From the NCBI GenBank assembly GCA_024280395.1, contig JAJRQG010000020.1:27956-91955 (forward strand): a DNA stretch of 64,000 nucleotides, in the 5' to 3' direction. The translations under genes and the position numbers were made by a program. Shown here piece after piece: positions 5,832-26,114 of this stretch. The first letter of the stretch is position 1. The number at the start of each line of letters is the position of its first letter. The notes under the pieces are model-generated. The model was not told the DNA's origin. It was given only the letters and a program-made list of their open reading frames with translations, and made no database searches. The DNA is from Gammaproteobacteria bacterium (GTDB lineage Bacteria > Pseudomonadota > Gammaproteobacteria > Xanthomonadales > Marinicellaceae).

Positions 5832-5860
5832 TAAAAAACTATAGACTAGACTTCTAATTG
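5817..5860. terminator. Bidirectional terminator-like hairpin between convergent genes
   Basis: Arms of 16 nt (5817-5832 and 5845-5860) pair with a single A/C mismatch around a 12-nt loop. The left arm covers the ABC-F stop codon. The convergent FHA gene ends at 5875. There is no long T-run, so this may be a stabilising 3' hairpin or a weak terminator for both strands. Confidence 0.55.
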
Positions 5861-5874
5861 TTAGAATATTTCAC

Positions 5875-6984
5875 TTATGTAGTTGGATTAAGGTACATAT
5901 AAATAAGGGCTGCCAATACAACCAGTATTAAAACCAATAATACTGGAACTACTGGAAATTTCTTGTTTATTTGCTGGGCTGAATTATTTATTTTAGTAGA
6001 TTTTGGAGCCGATTTTGCTGCTTTAAAAACCAAATTAACCGAACCCAAACCTATTTTATCTCCATCTGATAAGTATGTTGTTAATTTCTTTTGACCGTTA
6101 ATCATAATGCCATTAGTTGAAACCAAATTCACCATTTTCCATCTTCCATTTTGATGAATAATTTGTGCGTGACGATTAGAAACACTTCCATGTTCCAATA
6201 CAATATCACAAGTTGAATCTCTACCAATTTCCCAACCTGAAGCCTGTGCATAATCACCGATATTTAACTCGATTATCTCTTCTTCACCATCAATAAAACA
6301 ATGTAATCTAGCTATTTCAGAGTCATTCTTAATCACGGCATTGGCTCCTGCTCTAAGAGCTTCCAACTGCCCTACATCCATCATTCTTGTTCCATCAACA
6401 GCGCCTGTTTCCTCTACCCAGCTCTTAGGAATATTCTCTTCTTCACTTACAGAAGGCTTGAGACTTTGTTTCTGTTGTTCTTGTTCCGAGCTCTTTTCTT
6501 CTTCTATTATTTCTGGTACAGGAGGCTTTTCTTTTTTTGAAGCTGCTGTTAATTTTGCCAAATAATCTTCAGACATATCAACCACTGCTGTGTAATCACT
6601 TGTATCTTCCTCTTCTGATTCTTCATCGCAAACATTTTCATTGTCATCCTGAGCCATTGATATTTCAACCGTAAAAACATGCTTTTCAAAACTAATAGTA
6701 TCACCGTTTGTAAGATTTAACTCTTCGCTGACTTTGTTTCCATTCTTAAAAGTTCCATTACTTGAGCCAAGGTCTTTCAACAATAGTCTACCGTCTTTAA
6801 TATTGAGTTCTGCATGGTTTCTGGATATTTTTTTATCATCAATGAAAATATCACAATCCTTACCCCTTCCTACAATTTCACCACCTTCTATTAAATACTT
6901 TTTGCCTTTCTCTGAAATAATGGAATACACCAAATCTAGTGTCACTCCGCCTAATATTGTTTTGTCATCATCTTGACTATGCAT
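5875..6984 (-). CDS. Double FHA-domain protein with C-terminal membrane anchor
   Basis: The protein has 369 residues. A first canonical FHA domain (about 16-105) shows GRGKDCDIFI, SRNHAEL and SSNGTF. A second (about 235-320) shows GRDSTCDIVL, SNRHAQI and STNGIMING. Both keep the Arg, Ser and His used to bind phosphothreonine peptides. An acidic, low-complexity linker separates them, and one transmembrane helix (about 344-366) ends the protein, so both FHA domains should face the cytoplasm. It is the last gene of the run starting at 22141, 119 nt after the PP2C gene. The inferred role is a phosphopeptide-reading scaffold for the neighbouring electron-transfer complex. No Ser/Thr kinase is encoded in the window. 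Confidence 0.85.
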   Translation of the reverse strand: MHSQDDDKTILGGVTLDLVYSIISEKGKKYLIEGGEIVGRGKDCDIFIDDKKISRNHAELNIKDGRLLLKDLGSSNGTFKNGNKVSEELNLTNGDTISFEKHVFTVEISMAQDDNENVCDEESEEEDTSDYTAVVDMSEDYLAKLTAASKKEKPPVPEIIEEEKSSEQEQQKQSLKPSVSEEENIPKSWVEETGAVDGTRMMDVGQLEALRAGANAVIKNDSEIARLHCFIDGEEEIIELNIGDYAQASGWEIGRDSTCDIVLEHGSVSNRHAQIIHQNGRWKMVNLVSTNGIMINGQKKLTTYLSDGDKIGLGSVNLVFKAAKSAPKSTKINNSAQQINKKFPVVPVLLVLILVVLAALIYMYLNPTT

Positions 6985-7103
6985 TTTAATCTCTTATAAG
7001 TTGTTAAATTATACAAATGTATGTATTTAAGGAACATACAACCTTTAATTATACATGGGTTACTTTAAATAAATACTGCTACCAAGCCACAATGCTATTA
7101 AAT

Positions 7104-8063
7104 TTATAAATTTAGTGTTGTAATTATTAATATTAATATGATTACGCATACCAATAATATCATTTCTAATATATTTATTTTTTCTATTTTGGGTTTATCA
7201 TCTAAATCCATTTCTCTAGGAGCAATGCTTTTTACTCTCAAATCTTCAGGTAAAATTTCTTCTTTTTGTTCTTTCTCATCTACTGGAATACCAATAACAA
7301 CATCCCCTGTTTCTATATCAAACTCTCTGACAATCAATGGTTGAATTATTTTTTTCGCGTGTTTCGAATCTTCATCACTTTTGATTGTCAACAATGTAAT
7401 GTTATCTTTCCCTTCAGAATTAGCAGCATAATTGACCAACTTTGTTGTTAAACTTTTTATATTAACCATCTGGCCTAACTGCTTAATCACCTGGTCCTCT
7501 TGTGCAATTTCATAGAGCCCATCTGTGGAAAGCATTATTATTTGATCTTTCTCCAAAGTACCACTATTAGTAGCAACCCTTAATTTTTTCCTGTCGATCC
7601 CTAATGCTTGGGAGATTACATTTCTATCTGGATGAGTTTTCATTTGTTCAAAGGTGATATGGCCCGTTTCTAAAAGCAATTCTATGTAAGAGTGGTCTCT
7701 TGTAATCAACTTTAGTCCACCGTCCCACAAGTAGGCCCGAGAGTCCCCTACCCAAGCTAGTTCATATGCATTCGCATCAAACAGAGCTGCAACTACGGTA
7801 GATGCCATGCCTCTGAGCTCTTCATTTTGATTGGTTTCTTCAATAATTTTATTGTGTGCGGCTAACACAGCATCTTTTAATGATTTGCCTTCTTTAATAT
7901 TGTTGTAAATTATTTGACAGGCCAATTTACTGGCAACTTCTCCCTTCGCAAGACCTCCTACTCCATCAGCAACAATATATAAACCCAATTCTTCGTCAAT
8001 AAAAAAACTGTCTTCATTAACTTTTCTCTGTCCAATATTGGTTTTTGCAGAATACTGAATCAT
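7104..8063 (-). CDS. PP2C-family Ser/Thr protein phosphatase with C-terminal membrane helix
   Basis: The 319-residue protein carries bacterial PP2C (Stp/PrpC) motifs in order: NEDSF near residue 17, VADGVGG, GMASTVV, WVGDSRAYLW, LSTDGLYE and GKDNITLL near 225. The acidic residues that bind the two metal ions are present. A linker of about 60 residues follows, then one hydrophobic helix at the C terminus, so the enzyme is probably tethered to the cytoplasmic face of the inner membrane. The gene lies 25 nt after the pentaheme cytochrome gene and before the FHA gene. It presumably removes phosphate from targets read by the FHA domains. The matching kinase must be encoded elsewhere. Confidence 0.88.
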   Translation of the reverse strand: MIQYSAKTNIGQRKVNEDSFFIDEELGLYIVADGVGGLAKGEVASKLACQIIYNNIKEGKSLKDAVLAAHNKIIEETNQNEELRGMASTVVAALFDANAYELAWVGDSRAYLWDGGLKLITRDHSYIELLLETGHITFEQMKTHPDRNVISQALGIDRKKLRVATNSGTLEKDQIIMLSTDGLYEIAQEDQVIKQLGQMVNIKSLTTKLVNYAANSEGKDNITLLTIKSDEDSKHAKKIIQPLIVREFDIETGDVVIGIPVDEKEQKEEILPEDLRVKSIAPREMDLDDKPKIEKINILEMILLVCVIILILIITTLNL

Positions 8064-8088
8064 AGTATTAATACCTGTGGGAAAGTTA

Positions 8089-9378
8089 TCATTTATTTAA
8101 AACCTTTAAAAACAAGTTACAAACTACTTTAAACTGATCAGGGTAATATTTATCTTCATAGTCCAATGTTTCGTAAAGCTTATCTATCTGTTTAACATAT
8201 CTTTGTTCATCTTTTAAATCAATAGAAAGTGTATCTACGGCATAAATAATTTGTTCTGCACTGGTATAATCTCGAAATTTGTTTTTTGCTCCATCTGACA
8301 ACAATTGTTTTCTCATTAACTTTTTCTGTGCTGCAGAATATTTGGTTTCTATCAAAGATTTGGCAATTTTATCTAAAATAACCTTCATTGATTTTGCACT
8401 TTTAACGACCAATTCCTTATTCTTGGTACTTGATTTATGAAGCTGCTTTATGGCTTTCTTTAATTCTGATGAATTGGCATTACCAATTGCATCTAAAACC
8501 GATGTCAATATAACCATTGTTGCATCATCCAATCTTACTGTACCTGTTGCCACATTATTGCTTAAAGGCTCTATCGGCCATCTTGATGGTGACATCGCCC
8601 TGTGACAAGATTGACATTCATAAAATGCCAGTTCTGGAAATAAACCATGTTGCCTAAATTGATTAGATTGTAACAATTCCATTTGACTGCTTGCTTTGTA
8701 TATTAATCCAGTTAACCACATATTGACACTGCGAATAGAACCCTTCCTTTTTTCATAGTCAGCATCAATTGCATAATGTGCTGGTTGGTTCTGAGTATAG
8801 GACTCAAGTTCAAAACTCAATCGTGGATGACCTGCTCCCATAATTCTATGCGTAGCAAATTTATCTTTGGTTCCCAAATGGCAAGACAAACACAATTTGG
8901 CTCTATCTCTGGGTTTTTCAGATGGATAAAGACCAATTTTCATGTTCGTTGCATGAGTTGCTCCCTCTTCTTTGTGATCAGATAACCATCGCTCTGATCC
9001 ACCATGACAGGCTTCACAACTTACACCATCGCTAATTTGAAACCTTTTACCGCGTTTTTCTTTGGGCACATTGTCGGCATGACAATCTAAACATATCTTA
9101 GCAGTATGTGCACTGGGTAAGCCCAATTTTCGAGCCATTCTTTTTGATGCTGGTTTTAACAAAGTTTTATAGGCTCTGGCGTGGTCATCTTCTGCCAACC
9201 ATGTACGGTATTCATTCATTCTAACATTGTCTTTGGTACTTTCAGCACTTTGTCCATGACAAACTCCACTTGAACAAGTCGCTACGCCCATATGCTTATC
9301 TTGACTATACTCTGGTAAAGTAGCTTCTCCTAAAACTGTATTAACCAACAGAAATATCATTAATAGTATCTTATTCAT
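8089..9378 (-). CDS. Periplasmic pentaheme c-type cytochrome (cytochrome c554-like)
   Basis: ATG at 9378 is preferred over the upstream ATG at 9396. It overlaps the stop of the preceding gene as TAATG (translational coupling) and gives a clean signal peptide ending near VLGEA. The mature protein holds one CX4CH site (residues about 35-41) and four CXXCH sites (about 96-100, 121-125, 163-167 and 255-259), then a helical region of about 170 residues without heme sites. The GGSERWL and GAGHPRLSFE segments resemble the cytochrome c554 family. The inferred role is a soluble or peripheral electron carrier between the inner-membrane and outer-membrane components encoded upstream. Substrate or partner specificity cannot be read from the sequence. 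Confidence 0.8.
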   Translation of the reverse strand: MNKILLMIFLLVNTVLGEATLPEYSQDKHMGVATCSSGVCHGQSAESTKDNVRMNEYRTWLAEDDHARAYKTLLKPASKRMARKLGLPSAHTAKICLDCHADNVPKEKRGKRFQISDGVSCEACHGGSERWLSDHKEEGATHATNMKIGLYPSEKPRDRAKLCLSCHLGTKDKFATHRIMGAGHPRLSFELESYTQNQPAHYAIDADYEKRKGSIRSVNMWLTGLIYKASSQMELLQSNQFRQHGLFPELAFYECQSCHRAMSPSRWPIEPLSNNVATGTVRLDDATMVILTSVLDAIGNANSSELKKAIKQLHKSSTKNKELVVKSAKSMKVILDKIAKSLIETKYSAAQKKLMRKQLLSDGAKNKFRDYTSAEQIIYAVDTLSIDLKDEQRYVKQIDKLYETLDYEDKYYPDQFKVVCNLFLKVLNK

Positions 9379-12300
9379 TAATCTTCCACAAACCAAGGTT
9401 TTCCATTTTCGTCTAAATACATACGACGCATTTCTTCTAAATTCAACGGTCTTGATCCACGTCTACCAAATACTGCTACTTGTCCGCCCGTCTCATCAAC
9501 ACCTCTGTCTCTTTCTAACCCCCTAGAAAGTGCATAGGCTGGAGATTTAGTAGGATAACTGGCAATTAACAATGGATTGGGTTCTGGACTAAATCCATAA
9601 AACTTCGGTTGTAGGGTTGGCGATGTTAGTTGTACAATTTTTAAACCACCTGAGCCATCTGCCACATAAGCAAACAATGAAGCATTGGTTGTGGCTACAG
9701 TTACATCGTGAGCATCAACAATTTTTCCATCGGCATTGTAGTTTTTGAGCAACGTCATTTTCTCAGGGTTCTTTATATCGACTATACCGATACCGTCTTT
9801 GCCATTGGCCACATAAGCAAATGTTCTGGCCAAATGTAACTTTCTTGCTGAATTCATTTTGATGGTGTTATTGGCAACCAAAATAGGCTGTTCAGGGTTG
9901 GTCACATCTATTGTTTTTAAACCATCTGCATCAGTGACAAACAAATACCTAAATTGCTGTTGTACTGCTTGTGGTTTATTCATTGTGATGGTTTTAACAT
10001 GCACGGGTTTTGTTGGCTCATTTAAATTGACCACAACCAATGATCTATCAGTGACAATATAGGCGTAATATCCTCCCAGAACCATGTATTTAGCACCATT
10101 CAGTAATCCATTGGGATTCCAAGTTACTGCACGTGATATATTATTGTTCAGAGGATTTCCATCTGAGAATGTATTGGTATCAAACAATATCAACCCTTCG
10201 CTAGAATCTGTCACAACCGCATAATTATAAATAGGATGGAATGGTTGTTCTTGGTTTTTGATACGCATCAAATCGCCTTTATTTCTATCTGGGTGAATCG
10301 GCTGATTGGTTGGCAATACCAAACAAGTTGCATTGGTCGTTTTAATATGCGCATCATGACCTAAGGGACTAACAGGAGCAGTGATAATACGCTGTGAAAA
10401 TCCCTTGTTTGCAATAGAAGCAACATCATAAACCTGAACACCTTTCTTACCTTCTGCTACATACAAATATTCGCCACGCAATTGTAAACAATTTACGGGT
10501 CCAGTATTATGGGCATAACCTTCTTCTAGAACCTGTCCTTTCTCTTGATGATTATTAAAGAAATCAGGGTAAGCATATCTTTGCAAATAACTACCAATTA
10601 CAGCTTGCGGCTCTTCCCACTCAGTGACTTCTACACCCGTTATATGACCTTCGCCACCTACCCAAGCATAGTGCCCAATAAAATCGACAAACTTTGTACC
10701 ATACATCAATAATTGAGCCATGATGGCATTGTTGTCATTGGATTCTGATAAATGACAATCATTACAAGTTTTTGTCTCAGTCTTCCTGGTGGTATGAGGA
10801 AAATGTGGATTAAAAGCTTGTGAACTAAATCCACTAGCCGCAACAGGCGGTTGTTGCATGTATATTTTTTCTCGGTTGGCATTGGTAGATGATAAGACCA
10901 AAGCTGAAGTTGAACGAACGGGCGCAAATTTACCGCCTTTTGCAGTCTCACGTTTTCCAATCAAAAACATTTGATCTCGTGCCACTTGCGGGTTGTAGGT
11001 AGCAAAGTTACGAGATGCACCCCCTTCATAGTGATGTCTTTCAGTTTTGGCATTGGCCTCAATAGGCAAATGACAACCTCCGCAACTGGTCGTCCAAGAG
11101 GTATGACAAGCATAACATTCCATATTGTCATAAGAATGCGCCCAATCTTCTTTGGCTACTTCGTCCCCCCATTCTTTGGTATCTGTTTTACGGCTCATGG
11201 TTTTGGCCTTGGCCGCTTTGGCATTGTAGTGTTGGCTTTTGGGGTCAACAGCATCTTTTATTAAGCTCACTTTCCATTCCAATTCTGGATCCATAACAGA
11301 TCGCTGAATCAAATCATCTCCAATCCATTCAAAACGTTTCTTTCCATCTGGGTTACGTATTGCAGACAAATCCATACCACCATCCAAGGCAGCGGGGCCT
11401 GAGGTATATAAATTGGGATAAGCATCCGGTGTTCCATGACAATCTACACATGATATTTCAACCGCCGCTGCTACTTCTCCATACAAATGCCCATTGCCAT
11501 GTGAATCTTGGCCGTAGTGACAATCTACACAATGCATACCCGCATCTACATGTATTGAAGACAGATGTACTGCTTTTTTAAATTTCTTAGGATCTTTGTC
11601 TGAAACTTCTGCACCATCTTTGTCCAATAAATTACCATCTCTATCGCGTTTAAACACTGCTCTAAAATTCCATCCATGACCATGATAATCAGCAAATTGT
11701 GTGTCATTAAGTTGATCGTTCAATTCTGATACGCCTAGTACGAAGTCCATGTCTTTCCACTTGCCTCTGGGCGATGCTCCTTCAGGGTTTCTATCCAATG
11801 TATGTCTTTTTTCTTCTTCAGTTGGATAAAACTGTTTCTCTGGCCACATGAAAGGTGCATCAGATTCATAATCCCACATGGTATAACCCAAATAGGTATT
11901 CATGAACATATTGGGTTGATGCATGTGACAACTCATGCATTGACTGGTGGGAATAGCACGTGTAAATTTATGCTGCAAAGGATGTCCTGTTTCATCTTTG
12001 CTGATGGTATCATCTTTGGTTTGGGTTTTACCGGTATGGCCAAATTTAGCATATTTTCCGGAATGACGAGGATCTCTGTCATTGGCATAAACCACATGAC
12101 AACTGGCACAACCGGATGAACGGTAATCACCTGGCTGATCATTGGTTCCCATAAACCATGTATGCGGGTCATTTAATCGGGTTTTTGTGATATTCAATAC
12201 TGGAATTGATACCCGGCCACCTGTTCCTGGGCCGCGATTAGATTGTTTTAAATCGGGTTTTCCTGGTTTTTCTATGCGCTGTAATTGTCCCAATGAATTG

Positions 12301-13082
12301 GGCAAGCCTATTTCTGGAAACAAATTACTGATATTGCGACCACCACCTTCAAATACACGAAAAACATCACCTGGCTTAATGGTTTCCCAAGCTGGCAAGG
12401 GATAAATAGCTGGCATAATACTTCTATCTAGCATCTCTTGAGTGGGTTCAATTGGAGCAAGCAATTTAACGCCTTCTCCTTCTTTATTGTAAGCTTCGCC
12501 TAGTAAATATTGCTTGTAGGGCAATATGCCATTGTTATATGAAGCACCGCCCCATAGCATAGCAGTAGTGGCCATAATTGAACTTTCAGCAGCTTGAATC
12601 GTTTTTAAATGACAAGCACCACAAGCCTCTCTGGCAATTCGATAATCTGATGGATTGACGAAACGAATAAATTCAGGACTCTCTTTGTTTAACAAGGTAT
12701 AAGTTCGCTCAGGGTTGGCACTGGATGGAAAGTGCCATTTATCTGGAAACAAAGGCAATACATGTGCTTTTTCTAAGGTATGTTGGTAATCCTCTTCACC
12801 TTTGCGCGCTCCTTTGGCCACATGAACTTCTGCATTACCACCATGACAATCGGTACAACCCAATTTAATCGCAGGTGTTTCATGCATAGTTAATTCATCG
12901 GTATTTGTGTGACAGCTGATACACCCTTCACTTTTGGCATTCATTTGTGCTTTTGTTTGGGTTCTTGGAGCTGCTGGAAAAACTTCATATTCCCTTTCAA
13001 CTTTGTGCCCTTCATCAGATGCAAAAGTAACATTAAAGGCAAGTAGTATTCCAACTGCTATGATTATATTTCTTGTGTTCAT
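9378..13082 (-). CDS. Decaheme c-type cytochrome fused to an LVIVD-type beta-propeller
   Basis: This exported protein has 1234 residues and a signal peptide ending near FASDEG, without a lipobox. I count ten CXXCH sites: CISCH (54-58), CTDCH (76-80), CGACH (154-158), then CASCH, CMSCH, two CVDCH, CYACH, CGGCH and CNDCH up to about residue 780. Extra His residues could serve as distal ligands. From about 850 to 1190 the sequence turns into repeats with patterns such as LYVAEGKKGVQVYD and AYVANGKDGIGIVD, the LVIVD/beta-propeller type found on surface proteins. The C terminus (LNLEEMRRMYLDENGKP) is conserved in style but of unknown function. The gene lies 10 nt after the barrel gene. The inferred role is the large electron-transfer protein at or outside the outer membrane. 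Confidence 0.85.
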   Translation of the reverse strand: MNTRNIIIAVGILLAFNVTFASDEGHKVEREYEVFPAAPRTQTKAQMNAKSEGCISCHTNTDELTMHETPAIKLGCTDCHGGNAEVHVAKGARKGEEDYQHTLEKAHVLPLFPDKWHFPSSANPERTYTLLNKESPEFIRFVNPSDYRIAREACGACHLKTIQAAESSIMATTAMLWGGASYNNGILPYKQYLLGEAYNKEGEGVKLLAPIEPTQEMLDRSIMPAIYPLPAWETIKPGDVFRVFEGGGRNISNLFPEIGLPNSLGQLQRIEKPGKPDLKQSNRGPGTGGRVSIPVLNITKTRLNDPHTWFMGTNDQPGDYRSSGCASCHVVYANDRDPRHSGKYAKFGHTGKTQTKDDTISKDETGHPLQHKFTRAIPTSQCMSCHMHQPNMFMNTYLGYTMWDYESDAPFMWPEKQFYPTEEEKRHTLDRNPEGASPRGKWKDMDFVLGVSELNDQLNDTQFADYHGHGWNFRAVFKRDRDGNLLDKDGAEVSDKDPKKFKKAVHLSSIHVDAGMHCVDCHYGQDSHGNGHLYGEVAAAVEISCVDCHGTPDAYPNLYTSGPAALDGGMDLSAIRNPDGKKRFEWIGDDLIQRSVMDPELEWKVSLIKDAVDPKSQHYNAKAAKAKTMSRKTDTKEWGDEVAKEDWAHSYDNMECYACHTSWTTSCGGCHLPIEANAKTERHHYEGGASRNFATYNPQVARDQMFLIGKRETAKGGKFAPVRSTSALVLSSTNANREKIYMQQPPVAASGFSSQAFNPHFPHTTRKTETKTCNDCHLSESNDNNAIMAQLLMYGTKFVDFIGHYAWVGGEGHITGVEVTEWEEPQAVIGSYLQRYAYPDFFNNHQEKGQVLEEGYAHNTGPVNCLQLRGEYLYVAEGKKGVQVYDVASIANKGFSQRIITAPVSPLGHDAHIKTTNATCLVLPTNQPIHPDRNKGDLMRIKNQEQPFHPIYNYAVVTDSSEGLILFDTNTFSDGNPLNNNISRAVTWNPNGLLNGAKYMVLGGYYAYIVTDRSLVVVNLNEPTKPVHVKTITMNKPQAVQQQFRYLFVTDADGLKTIDVTNPEQPILVANNTIKMNSARKLHLARTFAYVANGKDGIGIVDIKNPEKMTLLKNYNADGKIVDAHDVTVATTNASLFAYVADGSGGLKIVQLTSPTLQPKFYGFSPEPNPLLIASYPTKSPAYALSRGLERDRGVDETGGQVAVFGRRGSRPLNLEEMRRMYLDENGKPWFVED

Positions 13083-13092
13083 TTCCTTCCCC

Positions 13093-14973
13093 TTAATACG
13101 TTAGAATAACATTGAATAACAGCGAATCAACATCGCCTTTTCCAAACAACTGTTCAAAACCATCTCCTGCAAATAATCTGGCATATGAGAGTCTCACCAC
13201 AACATTTTGTGAGTTCAAGGGTCTCCATATCAAAGCTGCTGACAAATCTAAACCTATTTCTTTATCAATATTGGCTTGCTGCCGGGCTATTTCTAATACT
13301 TCTGTCGTATCAAATTGTAAATAATTGGCATTCATAGAAAAACTTAATTCTGGAAGCAATTCCATATCCATTCCAATGCCCAATAAACCAATACCTGGAT
13401 TGGTAAAATTCGACTGTCCATGTTCTTTAGATGAACGTAACGAGTTCAAAATACCATTTCTGGCAGACAATGCTACTTTACCGCCGGCAATCAAGGGGTT
13501 GGCTTGACGAATCCAATAACTCGTATCGGCACCAGCAAACTGGGGGTTTTCAAAAATAGCATCAAAACCTTCTGATTTGTTATCAAAAGGATCATCGTCA
13601 CCACTGCCATATAAAAAAGAAGCGCTTAAACGTATCCAATCAAAATCCATTGATGCTTCTGCAGCTAAAAAATAAGCCCGGATGTCAGATTCAACATCAT
13701 TGTATGTTCCATGAGATTCATCACCAAAAGCATAATAGGCAGATGTAGTTAAATTTAATCGACCAAAGTGACCATCTCCATTATAGCCCACATAGGTCAC
13801 ATCATAAGTTCTGGGTCTTTCTGTGCCAATTGATGCAGGTCGTGCTATAAAACCATTATTATCATAATATAAATTGTCTTCACGGTTGCGGTTATAAATC
13901 AACGTAAATTGTGAGAAGAAACCCAATTTAGGCTTATCCTGCAAATACAAATTGGCAATAAACAGATCATCATTTCTTAAAGCTTTGCCCAAGTCATTGA
14001 GGCCACTATTGGTGTCTTTCTCAAAACGTCGGAACAAGGCTAAATTGTATTGATACTTGTTGTTGTCTCTGGTTCCGAATAATCTCACACCAAATGGAGC
14101 ATCTTGGAATAAAAACCCTCTAAAATCACTAGAAAATGGCTGAATACCAAATCTAATACTATCAAAATCATAGTTTGATGAAACATCTCTTAAATGTTTA
14201 TCAATAAACAAAGCTTGAATACCCACATGATTATCCGTTCTTGTTTGTCCTTCGGTCGGATCAACATTCAAACCCAATATTTCTTCAATTCTAGTATAAT
14301 TATAATTAAACACAGGTATAAAACGGTATTCATACTCAGGTGGTTTAAAAGTAGTGTCACCTTTGTAGTATACAAATTCTACTGCCAAATTTTCATTGAG
14401 AAGGCTTTGCTGGTATTGTCCAAAGACATCTAAATCACCAGGGTTATTGGTACTTTGCAAACCCACAGGAGTGGCTACTTCTCTGTCTTCATAAACCGTA
14501 TCAGAAATAACACCCAAATTAAAAAACCAATCATCGCCATGTACTGGTTTATCGGCTTTTAATACATTGCGGTTATACGGGTCATACCACCTGTCTTTGT
14601 ATCCCAAAGCATCAACAATTCTCCAACGATCTGGAATGGGAATCATGTCTTTAAAATCTTCTAAACCAGGCCTTGGAACGGGTGAAAATGATCGAGCCAA
14701 ATAAGTTCGTTGCTTGGCCTCAGGCTCCACAATTTTAACCACTTCAACATCGCCAGTTTCGGTATTTACCTTAACTACTTGCTTTTTACAATCCCGATTG
14801 GTTCCGCCTGGTCTTCTGCGTTTTTTCTTACCAGTTTTGTGAGAAGTTTGATCAACACAATCATTTTGATTCTGTGCTGTGACGTTGCTTGGTGTAAATA
14901 GTGTACCAAAAAACAAAGCAAAGGTAACAACTGAGATATTCATTGAAACTTTAATTGAGGTTTTAATATTCAT
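13093..14973 (-). CDS. Porin-like outer-membrane beta-barrel protein
   Basis: The start at 14973 is preferred over 14994. It follows an AGAGGT ribosome-binding site and lies just after the upstream stop, giving 626 residues with a normal signal peptide ending near VTAQ. A short basic segment (KKKRRR) between two Cys residues follows, then a region of about 100 residues, and then long alternating beta-strands with aromatic girdles to a C-terminal strand ending in LTY. This is typical of an outer-membrane barrel. I cannot assign it to the MtrB family by sequence. Placement between cytochrome genes suggests it is the barrel that lets a multiheme protein pass electrons through the outer membrane. 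An ordinary porin or substrate channel is the alternative. Confidence 0.75.
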   Translation of the reverse strand: MNIKTSIKVSMNISVVTFALFFGTLFTPSNVTAQNQNDCVDQTSHKTGKKKRRRPGGTNRDCKKQVVKVNTETGDVEVVKIVEPEAKQRTYLARSFSPVPRPGLEDFKDMIPIPDRWRIVDALGYKDRWYDPYNRNVLKADKPVHGDDWFFNLGVISDTVYEDREVATPVGLQSTNNPGDLDVFGQYQQSLLNENLAVEFVYYKGDTTFKPPEYEYRFIPVFNYNYTRIEEILGLNVDPTEGQTRTDNHVGIQALFIDKHLRDVSSNYDFDSIRFGIQPFSSDFRGFLFQDAPFGVRLFGTRDNNKYQYNLALFRRFEKDTNSGLNDLGKALRNDDLFIANLYLQDKPKLGFFSQFTLIYNRNREDNLYYDNNGFIARPASIGTERPRTYDVTYVGYNGDGHFGRLNLTTSAYYAFGDESHGTYNDVESDIRAYFLAAEASMDFDWIRLSASFLYGSGDDDPFDNKSEGFDAIFENPQFAGADTSYWIRQANPLIAGGKVALSARNGILNSLRSSKEHGQSNFTNPGIGLLGIGMDMELLPELSFSMNANYLQFDTTEVLEIARQQANIDKEIGLDLSAALIWRPLNSQNVVVRLSYARLFAGDGFEQLFGKGDVDSLLFNVILTY

Positions 14974-14974
14974 T

Positions 14975-17050
14975 TTATTTACCTCTACACACATTTTCTT
15001 CAGTGCTATTTAAAAATGGAGATTGTGGACATTGTACAAACCTTAACCGAATACCTTTGGGTGTTAAATTATCTGCTCTCATGTTAACAGGAGCATTATT
15101 GATTGAGCCATTCAACACAATCCCTGCATTGTGTATTCCTAAAAATGAAATCATATCATCCTGATCCACACCATCACCTGACACACCTATGCCTCCAATT
15201 AATTGGCCGCCTCTATATATCGGCACACTTCCTGGGAAAATTTGAATACCATTGGCTAATCTAGATGAATTTATTTCCGTACACACATTGCCTGTATCTA
15301 AAGCAGTCGCACCCGCGGCAAACAAAACATGTTCTATAACTTTATTCATAACCAAGTCCAACTGTAAACCTGTTGAAAATATACTCCATTTATCATCAGC
15401 AAAAGACTTGCTCAGTGGACCATTGGGATTACTCTCAATACCATCGGCATAAAATGGCCTAGAAAGATTGCCGCCTGCTCTATCTGAAAAAGCAGTACCA
15501 TCGTTTAATGCATCATTACCAACAAAGTTTTTAACTGCAGTAACATAATCGGGAATCGCTACGGTTTCCTTAACCATTAAATCGGTATCAAGATAGTTAG
15601 TTGGGATTGCAATATTATTCAAAAAATCTGCGGCGTTTGAATTAGAGAAAAATGCCGCTGTTCTGGCTTTTTGTAAAGACACGTCAGAGCCAAAAACAGG
15701 TGCATCTCTGGTTCTAACAATGCCCAATGGCACACCTTGTGTATCAACCACAGATATTGTCACTCTGGCTTTTGAACCCAATGGGCGTCTAATTTGTGCT
15801 CTGGCACGATTGGCAACATCTAAAGCCGATCTTAAAATTTCTCTAACTTCATTGGCAGACAATGCCGCCACTCCATTAATCAAACCTTCATCAGTTCCAG
15901 CTATCGGCGGATATCTCTCAACATTATTTCCATCAACAAAGACAAATGCATCTAACCCTACATAATCTTGTGTATCGGCACGCACTCCAGATTCCGCATC
16001 GGCAAATATGGCGCCTCTTTTTATAAAAGCATCTGTATACCCAGCAACTGTAACGAGGTTACCCGCAGTTAAACCGTCAAATTCTGTTGCAGATTGTGGT
16101 GTTATGGTTACATCATTAAATGTCGCATCGCTAAACCTTAAAGTCTTACCATCCACAGTAATTCGATTCGCTTTCACATCATCTATTGGCTCATAACCCA
16201 ATGTGGCTGCCAATGCGATAATTTCATCATTGTCAGTATCGAAGTCTAAAATAAATTTATCAATGCCATAATGATTATCTGAAATCGCTCCTACACCCCC
16301 CACTACTTCTCCATTTTTATATAATGGAAAACCACCTGAATCGGCGGACAAACCCAATGGCGATCTTTGAGGTCCTATGTTTTTCAAAGGATCATATCGT
16401 AAGGAAAAGTCTGAACAACCCAATTGACTAAATTGCACACCAAACAATGGGCCTGCTGGTTGATTATCTTCTCCAGGATTAAAGTGTTCTTGAATAATTT
16501 GTCCTGCAGTACGTGTAGTGAATGCATTGCCTGAACTGGATAAATATGCACCTGTAATGGCTTTAGAAATGGCTGCCAATGCATCACCATTGGCTCCAGT
16601 TGGCAAAACAATATTATCCAAACCTGACTCAACAGTAGCAGGTAAAGTTGAACTAATGGTTACTTGAGTATCAACACCATTCATGCGATAAACACCCAGC
16701 ACATTGCCTACTCTATCAACCACCGCAAATGTTGCCAACTGACCCAATGATTGCGCTTGACTAATGCCTTGTGCTAGGACTGATTTAACATCATCAACTG
16801 TAAGATGATTGCCATGAGCTTCTGCAATATTTATAGGAGTTGGTGCTGGAGTTTCTGACAATTGAGGTCCAAATGATTCTCCTTGAATATTCCAAGTAAA
16901 ATTAGAATCGATTCGTTCTGGGCTTTGCACTTGTTCTCGAACTGGACCCACTCCTTCAAAAGGTCTAATCGAGTCTCCTGCCAATAGCCCTCCATTAATC
17001 AATAGCCCTATTATAATTTTTGACGTTATTTTAGTTTTCTTTATCATCAT
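14975..17050 (-). CDS. Exported protein with tandem GlcG/HbpS heme-binding-type domains
   Basis: The 691-residue protein has an N-terminal signal peptide (about 1-26). Two regions match the GlcG/HbpS family. The first runs from about 70 to 270, with a VLAQGISQA helix, ATFAVVDRVGNVLGVYRM and GGVGAI segments. The second runs from about 395 to 660, with VREILRSALDVANRARAQ, VTISVVDTQG and GGQLIGGIGVSGDG. HbpS of this family binds heme outside the cell; other members have no proven function. No CXXCH is present. The gene sits inside a cytochrome operon, 1 nt before the barrel gene, so heme handling, redox sensing or a structural role in the complex are possible. The family assignment is good; the function is open. 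Confidence 0.78.
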   Translation of the reverse strand: MMIKKTKITSKIIIGLLINGGLLAGDSIRPFEGVGPVREQVQSPERIDSNFTWNIQGESFGPQLSETPAPTPINIAEAHGNHLTVDDVKSVLAQGISQAQSLGQLATFAVVDRVGNVLGVYRMNGVDTQVTISSTLPATVESGLDNIVLPTGANGDALAAISKAITGAYLSSSGNAFTTRTAGQIIQEHFNPGEDNQPAGPLFGVQFSQLGCSDFSLRYDPLKNIGPQRSPLGLSADSGGFPLYKNGEVVGGVGAISDNHYGIDKFILDFDTDNDEIIALAATLGYEPIDDVKANRITVDGKTLRFSDATFNDVTITPQSATEFDGLTAGNLVTVAGYTDAFIKRGAIFADAESGVRADTQDYVGLDAFVFVDGNNVERYPPIAGTDEGLINGVAALSANEVREILRSALDVANRARAQIRRPLGSKARVTISVVDTQGVPLGIVRTRDAPVFGSDVSLQKARTAAFFSNSNAADFLNNIAIPTNYLDTDLMVKETVAIPDYVTAVKNFVGNDALNDGTAFSDRAGGNLSRPFYADGIESNPNGPLSKSFADDKWSIFSTGLQLDLVMNKVIEHVLFAAGATALDTGNVCTEINSSRLANGIQIFPGSVPIYRGGQLIGGIGVSGDGVDQDDMISFLGIHNAGIVLNGSINNAPVNMRADNLTPKGIRLRFVQCPQSPFLNSTEENVCRGK

Positions 17051-17084
17051 TTTCCCCTATGTATTATCAATATTTTCCATTCCA

Positions 17085-18758
17085 TTATTGAGCAAAATGA
17101 AACTCATGGCACCTAATACAGGACAGTTCAACACTATTGTGTTGGTCTTGTTGGTGACATTCCAAACATTTATTTCTTTGTGGCATAGCTATATCAGATG
17201 AAACATCAGATTTTTCTACATCGTGACAAGTTAAACAAACTTCTTGCTCGTTTTTCTGTTTAACGCTTAAGTGACTTACATGATCAAACTGAGCTTTTGA
17301 ATACCAATCTGCATTGATTTTTATGGGCTTAACAAACCACTTACTCAAAATATCATCTGTATTATTATCAGTAACTTCATGACAAGTAATACAGCCACTT
17401 TTGGTAAATTGGAATTCTGCTTCTTTAAATGCTTCGGCTCGCCCACATTCCAAACCCGTCCCTTGACAATTTTGATTGTTCGTGTGCTTTCCAGGAATTC
17501 TTCTAATTTTCTTTCTCGCACGTTTCTGTCTTAAGTCAGGGTCTGTAAATTCACGAATATAGTGGGCTTGTAACATCACGGTAGCTGTTCGCAAATCTCC
17601 ATGTTGCAACTCTAAATCTGGATTAAACACATCAAATGTTAATTTGTGGCAACTTCTACAGTCCTTATCCATTGTGATGGGTTTAAAATGCTCTTGATCA
17701 TCTTTTAACTGGTGACAGTCATTACACACCAATTGATCTCCAGTCGATTCATCTTGAACTTTTTCATCATCCAAGTGAACTTCGTGAGAAAACTTCAAAT
17801 TTGATTGTTCTTTCAATGGATTGTCAAGATTAAATATTGGTCTAGAATTCACCCATTCATATTGACCATTTTCAAATAACGGATTCACCATAGTCAATCT
17901 AAATGGAGGGTGGTTTTGTGAGTTAAACCCATTAACTGCCCTTACAGAACTTTCATCTTTAGAAAAATTTTCAATATTACTATGACAATCGATACACAAA
18001 GAATCATCTGTTCTCGTGAGTTGCAGAGGTTCGTTGTGTTCTTTGTGACAGTTCTCACACATAAATTCATCTAACTCGTCAACAGCAGGATGATTGTTGG
18101 ACACATGCTCTCCTAAGTTTTGATGGCAACTCAAACATTGTTTGTCTTGTACTTTTTCAAAAGGTTTAACATGACAAACATTACAATTATCTCCTATTTC
18201 TGGGATTCTGTGCGCCATTGCTAACGGACCAGATGACCACGAACGGTCTGTAGGAATTGGCATTTCATCAAATTTTTGTTTTATCGATGGATTCTGAAAT
18301 CCCAAATAGGGAACAATCAAAAACAAAGCGATTATAGCAATAAATGCGAGATAGGAAACAGTTCGTATACTAAAACTACTTTTTCTTTGTACGAGAATAT
18401 ATAGCTTTTTACTTGCTGTAGATTTTCGCTTAGATCGAATAACATTGATTGCAAAATCAAAGCCAGTTGGGGGTTTAATCACTTCTAAATCATAAACACC
18501 TAAGCGATATACCACACCTTGTTTCAATTTTCCTGATTTTGCAAATTTATTCTCAATAGACAGATTCAGTTCACCAGTACAGCTAAACTGAGCGTTTGTT
18601 TGATTCAGTGCTTTTATGGTGAGGGTTCCTTCTTCTAAGTCTTCCAAAATTACATTGTTAGAATCGTTGGAACCTATCAACAATTCTTTGACGTCAAAAT
18701 CTAAATCCTGTAATTCATCCAGACTACCTAAAACTGATTTTCTTACTAAAAAAAACAT
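17085..18758 (-). CDS. Inner-membrane decaheme cytochrome c with cytoplasmic FHA-like N-terminal domain
   Basis: The protein has 557 residues. Residues 1-100 resemble a degenerate FHA domain (LLIGSNDSNNVILEDLE, then a beta-rich stretch to YDLEVI) without the canonical Ser-X-X-His. A basic stretch (RSKRKS, SKKLY) precedes a single transmembrane helix (about 133-154), which predicts the N terminus inside and the rest in the periplasm. The periplasmic part carries ten CXXCH sites: CNVCH (192-196), CLSCH, CENCH, CIDCH, CNDCH, CRSCH, CITCH, CLTCH, CLECH and CIRCH near the C terminus. The gene lies 10 nt after the cytochrome b-like gene. The inferred role is to take electrons from the membrane cytochrome b to periplasmic hemes while sensing cytoplasmic partners. 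Confidence 0.83.
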   Translation of the reverse strand: MFFLVRKSVLGSLDELQDLDFDVKELLIGSNDSNNVILEDLEEGTLTIKALNQTNAQFSCTGELNLSIENKFAKSGKLKQGVVYRLGVYDLEVIKPPTGFDFAINVIRSKRKSTASKKLYILVQRKSSFSIRTVSYLAFIAIIALFLIVPYLGFQNPSIKQKFDEMPIPTDRSWSSGPLAMAHRIPEIGDNCNVCHVKPFEKVQDKQCLSCHQNLGEHVSNNHPAVDELDEFMCENCHKEHNEPLQLTRTDDSLCIDCHSNIENFSKDESSVRAVNGFNSQNHPPFRLTMVNPLFENGQYEWVNSRPIFNLDNPLKEQSNLKFSHEVHLDDEKVQDESTGDQLVCNDCHQLKDDQEHFKPITMDKDCRSCHKLTFDVFNPDLELQHGDLRTATVMLQAHYIREFTDPDLRQKRARKKIRRIPGKHTNNQNCQGTGLECGRAEAFKEAEFQFTKSGCITCHEVTDNNTDDILSKWFVKPIKINADWYSKAQFDHVSHLSVKQKNEQEVCLTCHDVEKSDVSSDIAMPQRNKCLECHQQDQHNSVELSCIRCHEFHFAQ

Positions 18759-18768
18759 AATTAATTAA

Positions 18769-19644
18769 TCACCAATAAATAAATACAACTAAAATGTGCA
18801 CGATTAATGCTGCCAACAATGCGATTGTAATGGGAATATGAAAAATCAACCACGCTTTTAAATAAGCCTTTACTTGGAGAGTTCTCCTAATAATTTTTAA
18901 CAACCTTTGACGCCTTGAAAACAAAGTCAATATTTCATTTAAAGCACTAGCTTCTGCTTGTTTCTGGCTATTGGGGATAGCTGTAGACAGAATATCAATA
19001 ATTATTTCTTGATTTTTATTAGTTACCAATTGTTTTGATCCTGATTGTAGACGAATTTTTGACCCGTCTTTGCCTCTTAATTGTTTGAAAAGAGTACTAT
19101 CCAATTGTGTATTTTCAATGGCACTTAACACCATCAATCTAACACCAGTTCGGCAAGAGATTGCTAAATTTTTAATCTTTTCATCGATTTCCTGCAAGTC
19201 ATCAAACCATTGATCTTGTGAGGTTCCATTGTTATTAGAAGATAAAATTCTGGGGTAATGCATATAGGCAAAAAGACCGAAAAAGCCTGAAAAAATAACT
19301 GCAAGCATAAGTATATAGGCCAGGGTATGAACGTTCCAGCCCACTTGAAAAGCCGCATGCAAAGTAGTTATCAACAATAATGAGGTTCCTAGGAACACAT
19401 GGGCAGAAGTCCAGCCTTCAACTGTTCCCATATTTGAAGAATATGATCTTTTACGTATTCCCAAGAAAGTCAATAACAATATAAAGAAAGCAGAGGTAAT
19501 GCCAAGAATATAACCTTGTAATGTACCACCATTTGCTGGTTGGTCTTCACCCTGTGAAAAATAGAGTGCTATACTTGCAACAGCCAATACAAGAAATAAC
19601 TTTAAATATCTGTAATGTTTATATTTTAATAAATTTTGATGCAT
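18769..19644 (-). CDS. Cytochrome b-like integral membrane protein
   Basis: The start at 19644 is preferred over 19656: a GGAAG ribosome-binding site lies 7 nt upstream and the gene then begins directly after the preceding stop. The product has about 291 residues. Five hydrophobic helices are visible: four in the first half, and one at the extreme C terminus after a charged cytoplasmic domain of about 110 residues. Histidines sit in or at the edges of helices (SAHVFLG and TTLHAAF in helix 3, NVHTLAY before helix 4, IFHIP and LIVHIL in helix 5), which could ligate two b hemes. The inferred role is to pass electrons between the ferredoxin-containing flavoprotein encoded upstream and the decaheme protein encoded downstream. 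The family name is not certain. Confidence 0.7.
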   Translation of the reverse strand: MHQNLLKYKHYRYLKLFLVLAVASIALYFSQGEDQPANGGTLQGYILGITSAFFILLLTFLGIRKRSYSSNMGTVEGWTSAHVFLGTSLLLITTLHAAFQVGWNVHTLAYILMLAVIFSGFFGLFAYMHYPRILSSNNNGTSQDQWFDDLQEIDEKIKNLAISCRTGVRLMVLSAIENTQLDSTLFKQLRGKDGSKIRLQSGSKQLVTNKNQEIIIDILSTAIPNSQKQAEASALNEILTLFSRRQRLLKIIRRTLQVKAYLKAWLIFHIPITIALLAALIVHILVVFIYW

Positions 19645-19645
19645 A

Positions 19646-22141
19646 TTATCTTCCATCCACCAATTCTACAAAATCATTTGGACTTATTCTGATAGCCGCC
19701 CCAGTTGGACAAGCACGTACACAAGCAGGACCTCCTTTTAGATCCATGCAAGCATCACATTTGACGGCTTTTTTACCTTTGTCCTTGGCTTTCTTGTCAA
19801 TTGTTACTTTTTTTGGTTCTCCTGGACCACTACCAACTCCCATGAACATCCAAGCAAATAAACTAGGCTTCTTGGGCATGTCATAACTCATCTTAATTAC
19901 ATCATATGGACAATTAGTTTCACAGTTTCCACAACCAATACAAGAAGTATCAATAAACACTTCCCCACTTTCAGCACGGTGAATTGCATCTGCCGGACAA
20001 TCTTTCATACAGTGGGGTTGTTCGCAATGCCTACATGAAATTGGAATATGCAAACCGGCAAAAGAGGAACCCGACTCTCTATCAAGTCTAGAGATACCAT
20101 TGTGAGTTTCAGCACATGCAGTTTCACAATTATCACACGCCACACATAGAGTTTCATCTATCACCAGTGCATTGGTCGCTTCTCCCAATCCTTTATCTAG
20201 AAGAAAACTCACTGTTTCAGCCGCTTCAACAACAGATCCCATAGAGTTAGAGTTCTTCATCAATTCCGCTAAATTTTTTTGTAATACTTTAATTTCATCA
20301 GGGTTTGATTTCACTAATGTAATAAATTGCTGCCGGTTTATTTTTAAGGCCTCTACCCTAACAGCTGCTTTGGCAGTATGCAGCCTAACTGGATTACCCA
20401 TCAGTGCCATTTGACCAACCAAATCTCCAGATTGCAATTGTACAGTCACTACGTTTCCTTTTGATAAAGAGACTGTTCCCGAACGAATCAGGTACAATTC
20501 TGCACCTTTTTCCCCTTCCTTAAAAATCTCCTCATTGGCTTTAAACTCTAACATTTCTACAGTTCCAGCCAACTGTACTAGTTCTTTGTTTGGTAGTTTG
20601 GGACTAAATGCACCTTGTAGGGCACGGGTGATAAAAATCCTATTGATTCCTTCTGCCACCTCATCATTAGAATTCATCAACTTAATCATAATCCTTCTTG
20701 AAGTTTCAATCAAAATACAGTCACTGCTTGCTATGGCATGGGCTTTTCTTGGGCGACCAGACAATAGACTCATCTCTCCAAAAAATTGACCAGCACCAAC
20801 AGTGAATTTTTTACCCGTACCTGAATCTAGATAAACCTCTCCTTCAACAATGGTATAAAAAGAGTTAGAATAATCTCCCTTCTTAAAAATATAATCACCC
20901 GCTTTAATTAGCTTTGTTAATTTGCTTACGCCGGCATTTCTAGCAATTTTTTCTTCCTTTTGTGTCTCTGTATATAATTCTTCATCCAAGGCAATAACAA
21001 TATTGCTTTCAATGATAAGCTCTCTAAAAGCCAAGGCATTCATGCGCCTAAACATTGGGACTCTTTGTTGGTACAACTCCAATACTTTTTGCGCATCCAT
21101 CGCATAGGGGAGCAATTTAAACTGCTGCTCCAACAAAGGATGATCTGCAGGCTTAATCTCTTTACCATGAATAAATTCGATAACATCATAACCTTGATTC
21201 ATGGCTTGCTTAATCAAAGGGTAGCCACCCAATGCACCGATAATATAAAGGCCTTTGACATTGCTTTGATATTGATTATCTAAATCAGGGATTGAATCGG
21301 GTTTATCATTGGGAAATTGAACGCCACAAGATTCAACAAAACGGCGTGGAGCAATTGCACCCAATCTTGCAATAATACAATCACAAGCAATTTCTTTATC
21401 TCCATCAGGAGTATCTAAAACGATTGCTCCATTTTGGCCATTGCCATCCGGTAGTTGAACTGATTTCACATTGGTATTATAGCCACAATAAAATTCATTG
21501 GACTTACTATTGATCGCAGCCAAAACCGCATTTAAATTACCCTCTTTGGCACGGGCAAATTCATTTTTACGGTTAATGATGTGTACAGTGTTTTGCTGAG
21601 CTAGACCCAATGCGTTTTCAATTGCTGCATCACCTGCACCAATTACCACAATCGTTTTGTCCTCAAATTCCGCAGGGTCTTCCAAAGTATATCTGACGAA
21701 GTCTGATTCGTCATCTCCTGGCATACCAAGCTTTCGTGGATTTCCTTGCAAACCAATACTAAGTATCACATTTTCAGAGGTGATCTCATTGCCATTTTTG
21801 AGTTTGATTATAAAGTTTGGGTTTTCACCAGAAATAGAAACAACTTCAGTTTCATATTGGACATTGACTTCGCAGTTTTTTAAACCATCTTCCCAAGCCT
21901 GCAAAACTGTTTCTCTTTTGCCAGCAACAAATTCCATGGGACTACGCAAATCAAGAAACCCAGGTTCATCCATAACATGCTTGCCTTTTTGATACTGGAA
22001 AATTGTCTTGGCTGGGCTAGAAAAAGCCTCTAGTAATAGGTGTGAGGAACCCTCCTGACTATAATGCGCAGCTCTTGCAGCAGCACTCAACCCCGCAGGT
22101 CCGGAACCAATAATTACAACCTTATATTTGTGGCTATCCAT
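19646..22141 (-). CDS. Fusion flavoprotein: FAD/NAD(P) oxidoreductase, two cyclic-nucleotide-binding domains, four-cluster ferredoxin
   Basis: The protein has 831 residues and no signal peptide. Residues 1-340 form a thioredoxin-reductase-like fold with GSGPAG (FAD, about 12) and GAGDAAIENA (NAD(P), about 168), but I see no CXXC redox pair. Two cNMP-binding domains follow (about 405-490 with FGEMSLLSGRPRKA, and about 525-610 with VGQMALMGNP). Residues about 665-820 hold four cysteine groups: CVACDNCETAC, CRHCEQPHCMKDCP, CIGCGNCETNCP, and a CDAC group completed by CVRACP. This is the DmsB/NrfC-type four [4Fe-4S] arrangement. It is the first gene of the run. The inferred role is a cytoplasmic electron entry (or exit) module at the membrane, possibly gated by a cyclic nucleotide. 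The first cNMP domain keeps the Arg typical of the phosphate-binding cassette more clearly than the second. Confidence 0.85.
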   Translation of the reverse strand: MDSHKYKVVIIGSGPAGLSAAARAAHYSQEGSSHLLLEAFSSPAKTIFQYQKGKHVMDEPGFLDLRSPMEFVAGKRETVLQAWEDGLKNCEVNVQYETEVVSISGENPNFIIKLKNGNEITSENVILSIGLQGNPRKLGMPGDDESDFVRYTLEDPAEFEDKTIVVIGAGDAAIENALGLAQQNTVHIINRKNEFARAKEGNLNAVLAAINSKSNEFYCGYNTNVKSVQLPDGNGQNGAIVLDTPDGDKEIACDCIIARLGAIAPRRFVESCGVQFPNDKPDSIPDLDNQYQSNVKGLYIIGALGGYPLIKQAMNQGYDVIEFIHGKEIKPADHPLLEQQFKLLPYAMDAQKVLELYQQRVPMFRRMNALAFRELIIESNIVIALDEELYTETQKEEKIARNAGVSKLTKLIKAGDYIFKKGDYSNSFYTIVEGEVYLDSGTGKKFTVGAGQFFGEMSLLSGRPRKAHAIASSDCILIETSRRIMIKLMNSNDEVAEGINRIFITRALQGAFSPKLPNKELVQLAGTVEMLEFKANEEIFKEGEKGAELYLIRSGTVSLSKGNVVTVQLQSGDLVGQMALMGNPVRLHTAKAAVRVEALKINRQQFITLVKSNPDEIKVLQKNLAELMKNSNSMGSVVEAAETVSFLLDKGLGEATNALVIDETLCVACDNCETACAETHNGISRLDRESGSSFAGLHIPISCRHCEQPHCMKDCPADAIHRAESGEVFIDTSCIGCGNCETNCPYDVIKMSYDMPKKPSLFAWMFMGVGSGPGEPKKVTIDKKAKDKGKKAVKCDACMDLKGGPACVRACPTGAAIRISPNDFVELVDGR

Positions 22142-23561: not shown

Positions 23562-23592
23562 TAAAATATCAGACCTACACTGTTGGCTTAAT

Positions 23593-23620: not shown

Positions 23621-23630
23621 TTCCATCTTA

Positions 23631-24829: not shown

Positions 24830-24840
24830 GATAATTACTC

Positions 24841-26097: not shown

Positions 26098-26114
26098 AAT
26101 TTTCCCCCGATGAT

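Follow-up and report, generated by a model that had tools for sequence, protein, structure and literature searches.

A seven-gene core operon of Gamma- and Alphaproteobacteria encoding a candidate signal-gated electron chain from NADPH to the outer membrane

PCC4 is described as a tentative, uncharacterised porin–cytochrome cluster (He et al. 2017, PMC5566968). In the passages of that article drawn on here, the inner membrane proteins (IMPs) of the tentative clusters PCC3 and PCC4 share a motif set of SGXXG and two WX3HX13H, and the PCC4 IMP has five transmembrane (TM) helices. PCC4 also has three multihemes in the periplasm, which carry 4, 5 and 10 heme sites, and in its subgroup II a PF13247 iron–sulfur (Fe-S) gene lies directly upstream of the IMP gene. 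PCC3 is placed in Gallionellaceae (PMC5566968), and the corresponding passages of a second article give its periplasmic cytochrome 21 to 27 hemes and its extracellular cytochrome 10 to 35 (PMC10734462). Here, we analyse a nine-gene operon in a 64,000-nt stretch of DNA (hereafter the window; contig JAJRQG010000020.1, positions 27,956 to 91,955) from a gammaproteobacterium of the Marinicellaceae. We read this operon as one electron chain from cytoplasmic NADPH to an outer-membrane reductase, gated by signals, a reading on which our confidence is evenly divided. It is likely that its five redox proteins (three multihemes, a cytochrome b-like protein and a flavin/Fe-S protein) form one chain.

Nine co-directional genes, all on the minus strand, span exactly 5875–22141 by open reading frame (ORF) calls, with three overlaps (11, 20 and 19 nt) and a largest gap of 119 nt. 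These coordinates confirm the nine same-strand genes with small gaps and overlaps claimed in an earlier sequence-only reading of the window. Its gene inventory was also right by Pfam and motifs: a donor protein, the cytochrome b-like IMP, an inner membrane (IM) decaheme, a GlcG/HbpS protein, a beta-barrel, a decaheme with a beta-propeller (decaheme-propeller), a pentaheme, PP2C and FHA. Motif counts and Pfam likewise agree with the 25 c-type heme sites, flavin and four Fe-S clusters that it had listed. There are 24 CXXCH motifs (10 in the IM decaheme, 10 in the decaheme-propeller and 4 in the pentaheme) and one CX4CH, in the pentaheme; beyond the hemes, the operon encodes one flavin/NAD(P) domain, two cyclic-nucleotide-binding (cNMP) domains and cysteines for four [4Fe-4S] clusters. 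The Pfam domains found over the operon are Pyr_redox, cNMP_binding (two stretches), Fer4 families, HbpS-like, LVIVD, PP2C and FHA (two stretches). A limited literature search found no description of the operon.

The two halves compared with described systems

The IMP of the window carries two WX3HX13H motifs and one SGXXG, and hydropathy gives it five hydrophobic stretches. Residues W82, H86, H100, W269, H273 and H287 are invariant in 12 aligned rows, and the match to the Pfam cytochrome b family PF01292 reached 16.1 bits, below the cut-off of 30.1. The operon shares with PCC4, as described in the cited passages, this motif set, a porin, multihemes and an Fe-S gene upstream of the IMP gene; here, the donor matches Fer4_11 (PF13247) with 44.2 versus 26.2 bits, and its gene and that of the IMP share 11 nt. 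The IMP profile reached, weakly, proteins encoded beside 24- and 27-heme (L184, E 3e-11), 21-heme (L185) and 34-heme (L183) cytochromes. It also weakly matched proteins in L181, L186 and L188, which are clusters with c554-like, decaheme and cNMP/Fe-S proteins. Both WX3HX13H motifs were found in all nine IMP relatives examined, and SGXXG in eight. The motif set and the L184 match constitute the likeness to PCC3; identity with PCC3 is ruled out, as no operon protein has more than ten heme sites. In L183, a Pyr_redox–Fe-S protein without a cNMP domain is encoded near the IMP relative and the 34-heme cytochrome (82–1731 and 4844–10909).

The multihemes of L188 contain 5, 3 and 10 CXXCH and those of L181 contain 4 and 10, numbers near those of PCC4, and we infer that L181, L186 and L188 are PCC4 loci. 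In all three, the protein preceding the IMP combines cNMP and Fe-S domains and lacks the FAD domain. A cNMP-linked inner half is therefore not unique to the present operon, and the outer half is its distinguishing part. No ORF listed for these three loci matched the barrel profile at E 1e-3. The operon differs from PCC4 in its heme numbers (10, 10 and 5, against 4, 5 and 10 in the cited passages), in the FAD/NAD(P) domain of its donor and in an outer half of GlcG/HbpS, AlgE-type barrel and decaheme-propeller, plus PP2C and FHA, PCC4 being known here from its description. Judged by sequence, the inner half is related to PCC3/PCC4 and the outer half is different. The sequence-only reading had called the conduit unfamiliar in type; this stands in that heme counts and cut-offs give no match to Mtr, Ext, Uet or PCC3, and has to be narrowed in that the inner half is akin to PCC3/PCC4.

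Within aa 666–811, the donor has 16 cysteines arranged as four sets of four, enough for four [4Fe-4S] clusters. Conservation was counted in 82 aligned sequences, including that of the window. In the NAD(P) site, N-R-(R/K)-x-E-F-x-R-A-K, R191 and K199 occur in 82/82, R197 in 81 and R or K at position 192 in 70. In the thioredoxin reductase fold, basic residues at these positions characterize NADPH-type sites, and their presence here suggests that the donor prefers NADPH over NADH. E456 and R465 of the first cNMP domain are each present in 82/82; in the second domain, R586 is present in 80, and at position 577, 54 sequences have E, 27 have Q and one has D. From these residues, both cNMP sites look able to bind. 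CRP-like boxes were above chance upstream of the FAD gene (20% versus 9% at ≥8/10 matches; 81 sequences, single-base shuffles), and Fur, FNR, OxyR and RpoN-like boxes in the same 81 sequences were near chance. In L178 (3052–6423) and L179 (5850–9206), donor and IMP are fused in a single ORF of ~1120 aa; a 9-heme protein related to the IM decaheme comes next, and the stretch examined contains no match to the barrel. Copies of the FAD–cNMP–Fe-S protein with no cytochrome b gene following them were seen in L065 and L047, the former directly behind an NADP-type glutamate dehydrogenase (GDH).

In the IM decaheme family, the N-terminus matched Pfam FHA in 38 of 54 aligned members and YscD_cpl (YscD-type FHA) in 41 at E 0.01; hydropathy points to the topology given in Table 1. 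A 10-heme 'Forkhead-associated protein', with the number 27, forms a row in a table of PMC10734462, in the part of that article covered here, so that a protein combining FHA and ten hemes has already been tabulated.

The outer half may have a new function. Six genes of the set had alignments of 50 or more sequences, and conserved columns are most frequent in that of the decaheme-propeller: across its 51 sequences, 317 of 1234 columns reach 97% identity or more, those of all ten CXXCH included. In the other five, the shares are 0.20 (FAD protein and barrel), 0.19 (GlcG), 0.12 (cytochrome b) and 0.09 (IM decaheme). The decaheme-propeller is 62–88% identical to its aligned relatives, and a protein search retrieved at least 7962 relatives at E 0.001 (of 7998 scored candidates). 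A fold search with its structure model returned propellers only, among the matches listed. In a PDB sequence search with five operon proteins, neither the decaheme-propeller nor the barrel had a match, and the other three (IM decaheme, GlcG/HbpS and pentaheme) gave weak or partial matches only, including that of the pentaheme to 1bvb (E 4.5e-4). A lipobox-like N-terminus was recognized by an ad hoc pattern in 37 of 58 GlcG/HbpS relatives; in the window's protein, the first cysteine does not occur before aa 212.

The barrel model best fits 18-strand channels of the AlgE/OprD type. At E 0.1, its sole Pfam match was the alginate export family Alginate_exp (PF13372; 19.1 bits, under the gathering score of 25.2), with no MtrB Pfam match. 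MtrB was not in the list of fold matches of the model either, an absence that is no proof. MtrB has 26 strands. The 18-strand AlgE/OprD-type fold predicted for the barrel makes an MtrAB-like sheath unlikely. The operon resembles MtrCAB/MtoAB as an idea, in joining a barrel to decaheme cytochromes, and departs from them in the predicted strand number and in having no MtrB Pfam match. MtrAB, MtoAB and PioAB were rejected as identities, since the MtrA-type DmsE family TIGR03508 scored only 15 to 34.5 bits versus 192.2. The Uet system of Candidatus Tenderia, in the passages of PMC10734462 that describe it, is similar in having a barrel, multihemes and a propeller-type repeat protein (NHL in Uet, LVIVD here). 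It was ruled out because neither an 11- or 3-heme protein (UetJ, UetDEG) nor a PPIase (UetB) was among the matches listed, so that the gene list given there does not fit.

Conservation, distribution and associated genes

Relatives were taken as the best 80 of 392 FAD-protein relatives on GTDB contigs. Synteny was counted, at each step, over loci in which the preceding gene had been found, omitting 5, 3, 6, 6 and 2 loci whose sequence ended early. The cytochrome b-like gene followed the FAD gene in 72/75 loci, the IM decaheme followed in 69/69, GlcG in 62/64, the barrel in 56/57 and the decaheme-propeller in 54/55; all six genes were in order on one strand at 51 of the 54 loci with at least 9.8 kb after the FAD gene. 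Because this order is kept in other genomes, the arrangement is not due to chance. The pentaheme was present in 43/43 genomes or records searched. Downstream of it, PP2C and FHA were both found in 20 of 42 genomes and at least one in 25 (in G427, PP2C is on the opposite strand), in a set that was hand-picked for long contigs and is no random sample, includes non-independent members (three Marinobacter, three Pseudoteredinibacter-like and several Lysobacter-like genomes) and covers less than 4 kb of downstream sequence in G400, G420, G421 and G435. This patchiness indicates a seven-gene core, conserved in Gammaproteobacteria and Alphaproteobacteria, to which the last two genes were added in some lineages. 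Within these two classes, the expectation that nine genes stay together holds for the core, whose order is kept, and only in some lineages for the PP2C/FHA pair.

Of 398 evenly sampled Pseudomonadota genomes, 11 carried the decaheme-propeller, and all 11 also carried the IMP at E 1e-75 or better. Four genomes (G154, G153, G001 and G034) had a strong IMP (E 1e-59 or better) and no decaheme-propeller match; the absence in G154 may be a gap, since its contig ends after GlcG and the barrel. In several Alphaproteobacteria (G349, G214, G396), the two halves are encoded at distant sites of the genome, and both are retained. Within the alphaproteobacterial family of G301, which seems sphingomonad-like from its likeness to a Sphingobium plasmid locus (L005), the system was present in 52 of the 149 genomes sampled and in 38 of 96 genera. 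Carriers include Kineobactrum, Haliea, Marinobacter, Colwellia, Lysobacter, Alcanivorax, Oceanibacterium and Sphingobium. Recurring exported proteins of ~700–950 and ~420–650 aa, each in 10 genomes, are encoded near the operon (L027, L138, L139, L026, L035, L144), and cytochrome c maturation-like genes, judged by eye, lie near it in the alphaproteobacterial loci L192 and L193.

An NADP-specific GDH gene was found near the operon or, in L191, inside it, at 12 loci; two copies were scanned, and both were above the NCBIfam cut-off (732 bits versus 536). GDH was present in 41/54 genomes, probably 40/53, since G368 and G436, which yield an identical match at an identical position, probably represent a single genome. 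In the G301 family, a close form of GDH, delimited by a 790-bit line set after seeing the list, occurred in 46/52 carriers and 1/97 non-carriers, and any form at E 1e-100 in 47/52 and 14/97, with Fisher values (1.3e-30 and 1.8e-20, respectively) that ignore relatedness. GDH was encoded within 13 kb of the decaheme-propeller in 10/46 genomes. Glutamate synthase, used as a control in this family, was found in 141/149 genomes (49/52 carriers and 92/97 others), which makes GDH an extra enzyme and not a replacement.

Ser/Thr kinases were detected in the flanks of 12 of the 42 genomes against 1.25 expected from genome-wide numbers, a comparison between different searches (BLAST with the kinases of these loci for the observed, Pfam at E 1e-8 for the expected) that uses rounded genome sizes and has close relatives among the 42. 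CHASE2-type cyclases lay near the system in 12 genomes (193 loci): L045, L049, L050, L051, L052, L053, L055, L056, L067, L152, L161 and L192, partial in L051 and L052 and with both Pfam domains in L152 and L192. A CpdA-like phosphodiesterase was found in 51/52 carriers and 6/97 non-carriers of the G301 family, within 3 kb of the decaheme-propeller in 27/51, and it is encoded inside the operon in L193. Its sole NCBIfam match at E 1e-20 was SpdA, at 140.9 bits, below the cut-off of 400. The window's genome (G000) contains 24 Pkinase matches at E 1e-8 and a single class III cyclase match, interrupted by a stop.

Gating by cyclic nucleotide and Ser/Thr phosphorylation is probable from these sequence associations. 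The sequence-only reading regarded control by cNMP and phosphopeptide modules within one operon as undescribed. In the limited literature search, no description of the operon was found; a cNMP-linked inner half, on the other hand, also occurs in PCC4-like loci. The phosphopeptide modules are backed by the FHA domains of the IM decaheme family and by kinases in the flanks, with the qualification that PP2C and FHA are lineage-specific.

The proposed chain and its alternatives

In the chain that we favour, NADPH, linked to GDH in many lineages, would reduce the flavin of the donor, whose Fe-S clusters would hand electrons to two b hemes of the IMP. From there, electrons would pass to the FHA-decaheme in the inner membrane, the pentaheme and the decaheme-propeller at the outer membrane. 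The outer-membrane reductase would comprise the decaheme-propeller, the barrel and GlcG/HbpS: the first would reduce a substrate admitted by the AlgE-type barrel, which GlcG/HbpS may bind. Cyclic nucleotide and phosphorylation would gate the inner half. The outward direction is suggested by the low potential of NADPH as a donor and by the membrane potential, which is negative inside and favours electron movement outward, and the decaheme-propeller is the putative terminal reductase because its strong conservation fits an enzyme rather than a wire. The barrel would then be a substrate port rather than a heme sheath. Of the full path from NAD(P)H or quinone to the outside, or the reverse, which had been proposed from the letters, the chain of cofactors and the NADPH-type donor are retained, and the exit to the outside is put in doubt by the 18-strand barrel, with which an MtrAB-like sheath is unlikely.

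Several observations weigh against this chain. The N-terminus of the window's own IM decaheme is degenerate, matching neither FHA nor YscD_cpl at E 0.01, and none of the cyclase, phosphodiesterase or kinase types tested for occurs in the window. Of the 42 genomes, 17 lack PP2C as well as FHA. No GDH was found at E 1e-30 in the window's genome, nor in its near relative G398; GDH is encoded away from the decaheme-propeller in 36 of the 46 genomes having both, and the Fisher values for the G301 family take no account of relatedness. In the structure model of the decaheme-propeller, the propeller is well predicted and the cytochrome part is poor (mean pLDDT 58); as this part has no usable model, the active site is not visible. 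The location of this protein at the outer membrane is suggested by its export signal.

NADPH oxidases and ferric reductases use NADPH, flavin and two b hemes to send electrons outward and are controlled by phosphorylation. The favoured chain has each of these features in its proposed form. It departs from them in that four Fe-S clusters separate the flavin from the b hemes, the b protein belongs to a different family, and 25 c hemes follow. More specifically, and as a tentative idea that we think rather doubtful, the operon could encode a two-membrane counterpart of NADPH oxidase. A cAMP-gated donor and a phosphothreonine-reading FHA decaheme would drive electrons outward to a decaheme-propeller reductase with an AlgE-type substrate channel, with NADP-specific GDH as NADPH partner in many lineages, and the system would be widespread in bacteria not known for extracellular respiration.

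If the favoured chain is correct, many Gamma- and Alphaproteobacteria (52/149 genomes in one alphaproteobacterial family) spend NADPH on a chain that ends at the outer membrane and is switched by a second messenger and by protein phosphorylation. Redox balance and, in many carriers, glutamate metabolism would be tied to the cell surface. The papers found describe no such chain for these organisms, and the system's association with a single dehydrogenase and a single phosphodiesterase opens direct genetic tests.

Alternatively, the operon could encode a true extracellular conduit similar to MtrCAB, in which the decaheme-propeller, passing through or docking onto the barrel, reduces insoluble or large acceptors outside. 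The joint occurrence of barrel, multihemes and inner membrane half is consistent with it, as are the remote IMP relatives beside 21- to 34-heme cytochromes in the PCC3-like clusters L183, L184 and L185. However, an 18-strand AlgE/OprD-type barrel is narrow for a decaheme. Surface wire cytochromes vary strongly, unlike the decaheme-propeller with its 62–88% identity among relatives, and we consider this conduit unlikely.

Electrons might also flow in the reverse direction, with an outside donor reducing NADP+ and GDH consuming the NADPH. The authors of PCC4 proposed inward flow from an electron donor to the quinone pool for its related inner half, in the passages cited here (PMC5566968), which counts against the outward chain as well, and the NADP specificity of GDH would suit this direction. 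However, inward flow would run uphill, against the membrane potential and towards a carrier of potential as low as that of NADPH, and the operon encodes no energy-coupling subunit; signalling gates would also be odd for an energy source. This direction appears more improbable still.

That FHA, cNMP and PP2C read the redox state of the chain, with electron flow serving as a signal only, agrees with the FHA domain on the IM decaheme in 38/54 members and with the kinases and cyclases nearby. A sensor would nevertheless hardly need as many as 25 hemes, a donor of the NADPH type and so large and conserved an outer-membrane module, which makes a purely sensory role very improbable. Least credible of all, to the point of being negligible, is an Ext-type operon for selenite/tellurite reduction, as in Geobacter: the NCBIfam ExtM model matches the decaheme-propeller with 69.7 bits, but ExtM, ExtN (20.1 bits) and ExtO (20.5 bits) all fall below their curated cut-offs of 800, 200 and 200 bits, by which Ext was ruled out, and among the matches listed the Ext models hit none of the other eight operon proteins.

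Feature coordinates and neighbouring genes

Table 1. Operon genes in reading order, 5′ to 3′ (22141-19646 first, 6984-5875 last), with the domains of each gene below it; positions are those of the window
Feature	Position	Strand	Evidence
Donor protein, 831 aa, FAD/NAD(P) oxidoreductase with two cNMP domains and four-[4Fe-4S] cysteines, cytoplasmic	19646..22141	-	Pfam, cysteine count, 82-sequence alignment
NAD(P)-binding stretch of donor, aa 164-202, NR(R/K)xEFxRAK, NADPH type	21536..21652	-	Residue conservation
cNMP domain 1 of donor, ~aa 410-490 (borders approximate, from sequence)	20672..20914	-	Pfam and conservation
cNMP domain 2 of donor, aa 532-613	20303..20548	-	Pfam and conservation
Four-[4Fe-4S] cysteine domain of donor, ~aa 660-815	19697..20164	-	Pfam, cysteine count, conservation
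Cytochrome b-like IMP, 295 aa	18769..19656	-	WX3HX13H and SGXXG motifs
IM decaheme, 557 aa, with an N-terminal domain, a single predicted TM helix (~aa 127-145) and ten heme sites	17085..18758	-	CXXCH count, family alignment, hydropathy
FHA-like N-terminal domain of IM decaheme, ~aa 1-115, degenerate in the window's copy	18414..18758	-	Pfam on family
Tandem HbpS/GlcG-like protein, 691 aa	14975..17050	-	Pfam
Outer-membrane beta-barrel, 633 aa, 18 strands predicted	13093..14994	-	
Decaheme-propeller with C-terminal LVIVD beta-propeller, 1234 aa	9378..13082	-	Pfam, CXXCH count
LVIVD beta-propeller domain, ~aa 865-1200	9483..10490	-	Pfam and structure model
Exported pentaheme, 435 aa, cytochrome c554-like	8089..9396	-	Pfam, heme motifs, 1bvb match
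PP2C Ser/Thr phosphatase, 319 aa, C-terminal TM helix	7104..8063	-	Pfam, NCBIfam
Two-FHA-domain protein, 369 aa, C-terminal TM helix	5875..6984	-	Pfam

ARAGORN called a tRNA-His (anticodon atg) at 15292–15383 on the minus strand, within the GlcG/HbpS gene; as this stretch sits in conserved coding sequence, we regard the call as a false positive. Upstream of the operon, 22926–28315 encodes a Roadblock/LC7 protein, a PAS protein, two phosphonate-binding-like proteins and a protein with a weak, below-cut-off Roc/GTPase match, a region reminiscent of an MglA/MglB-type module.

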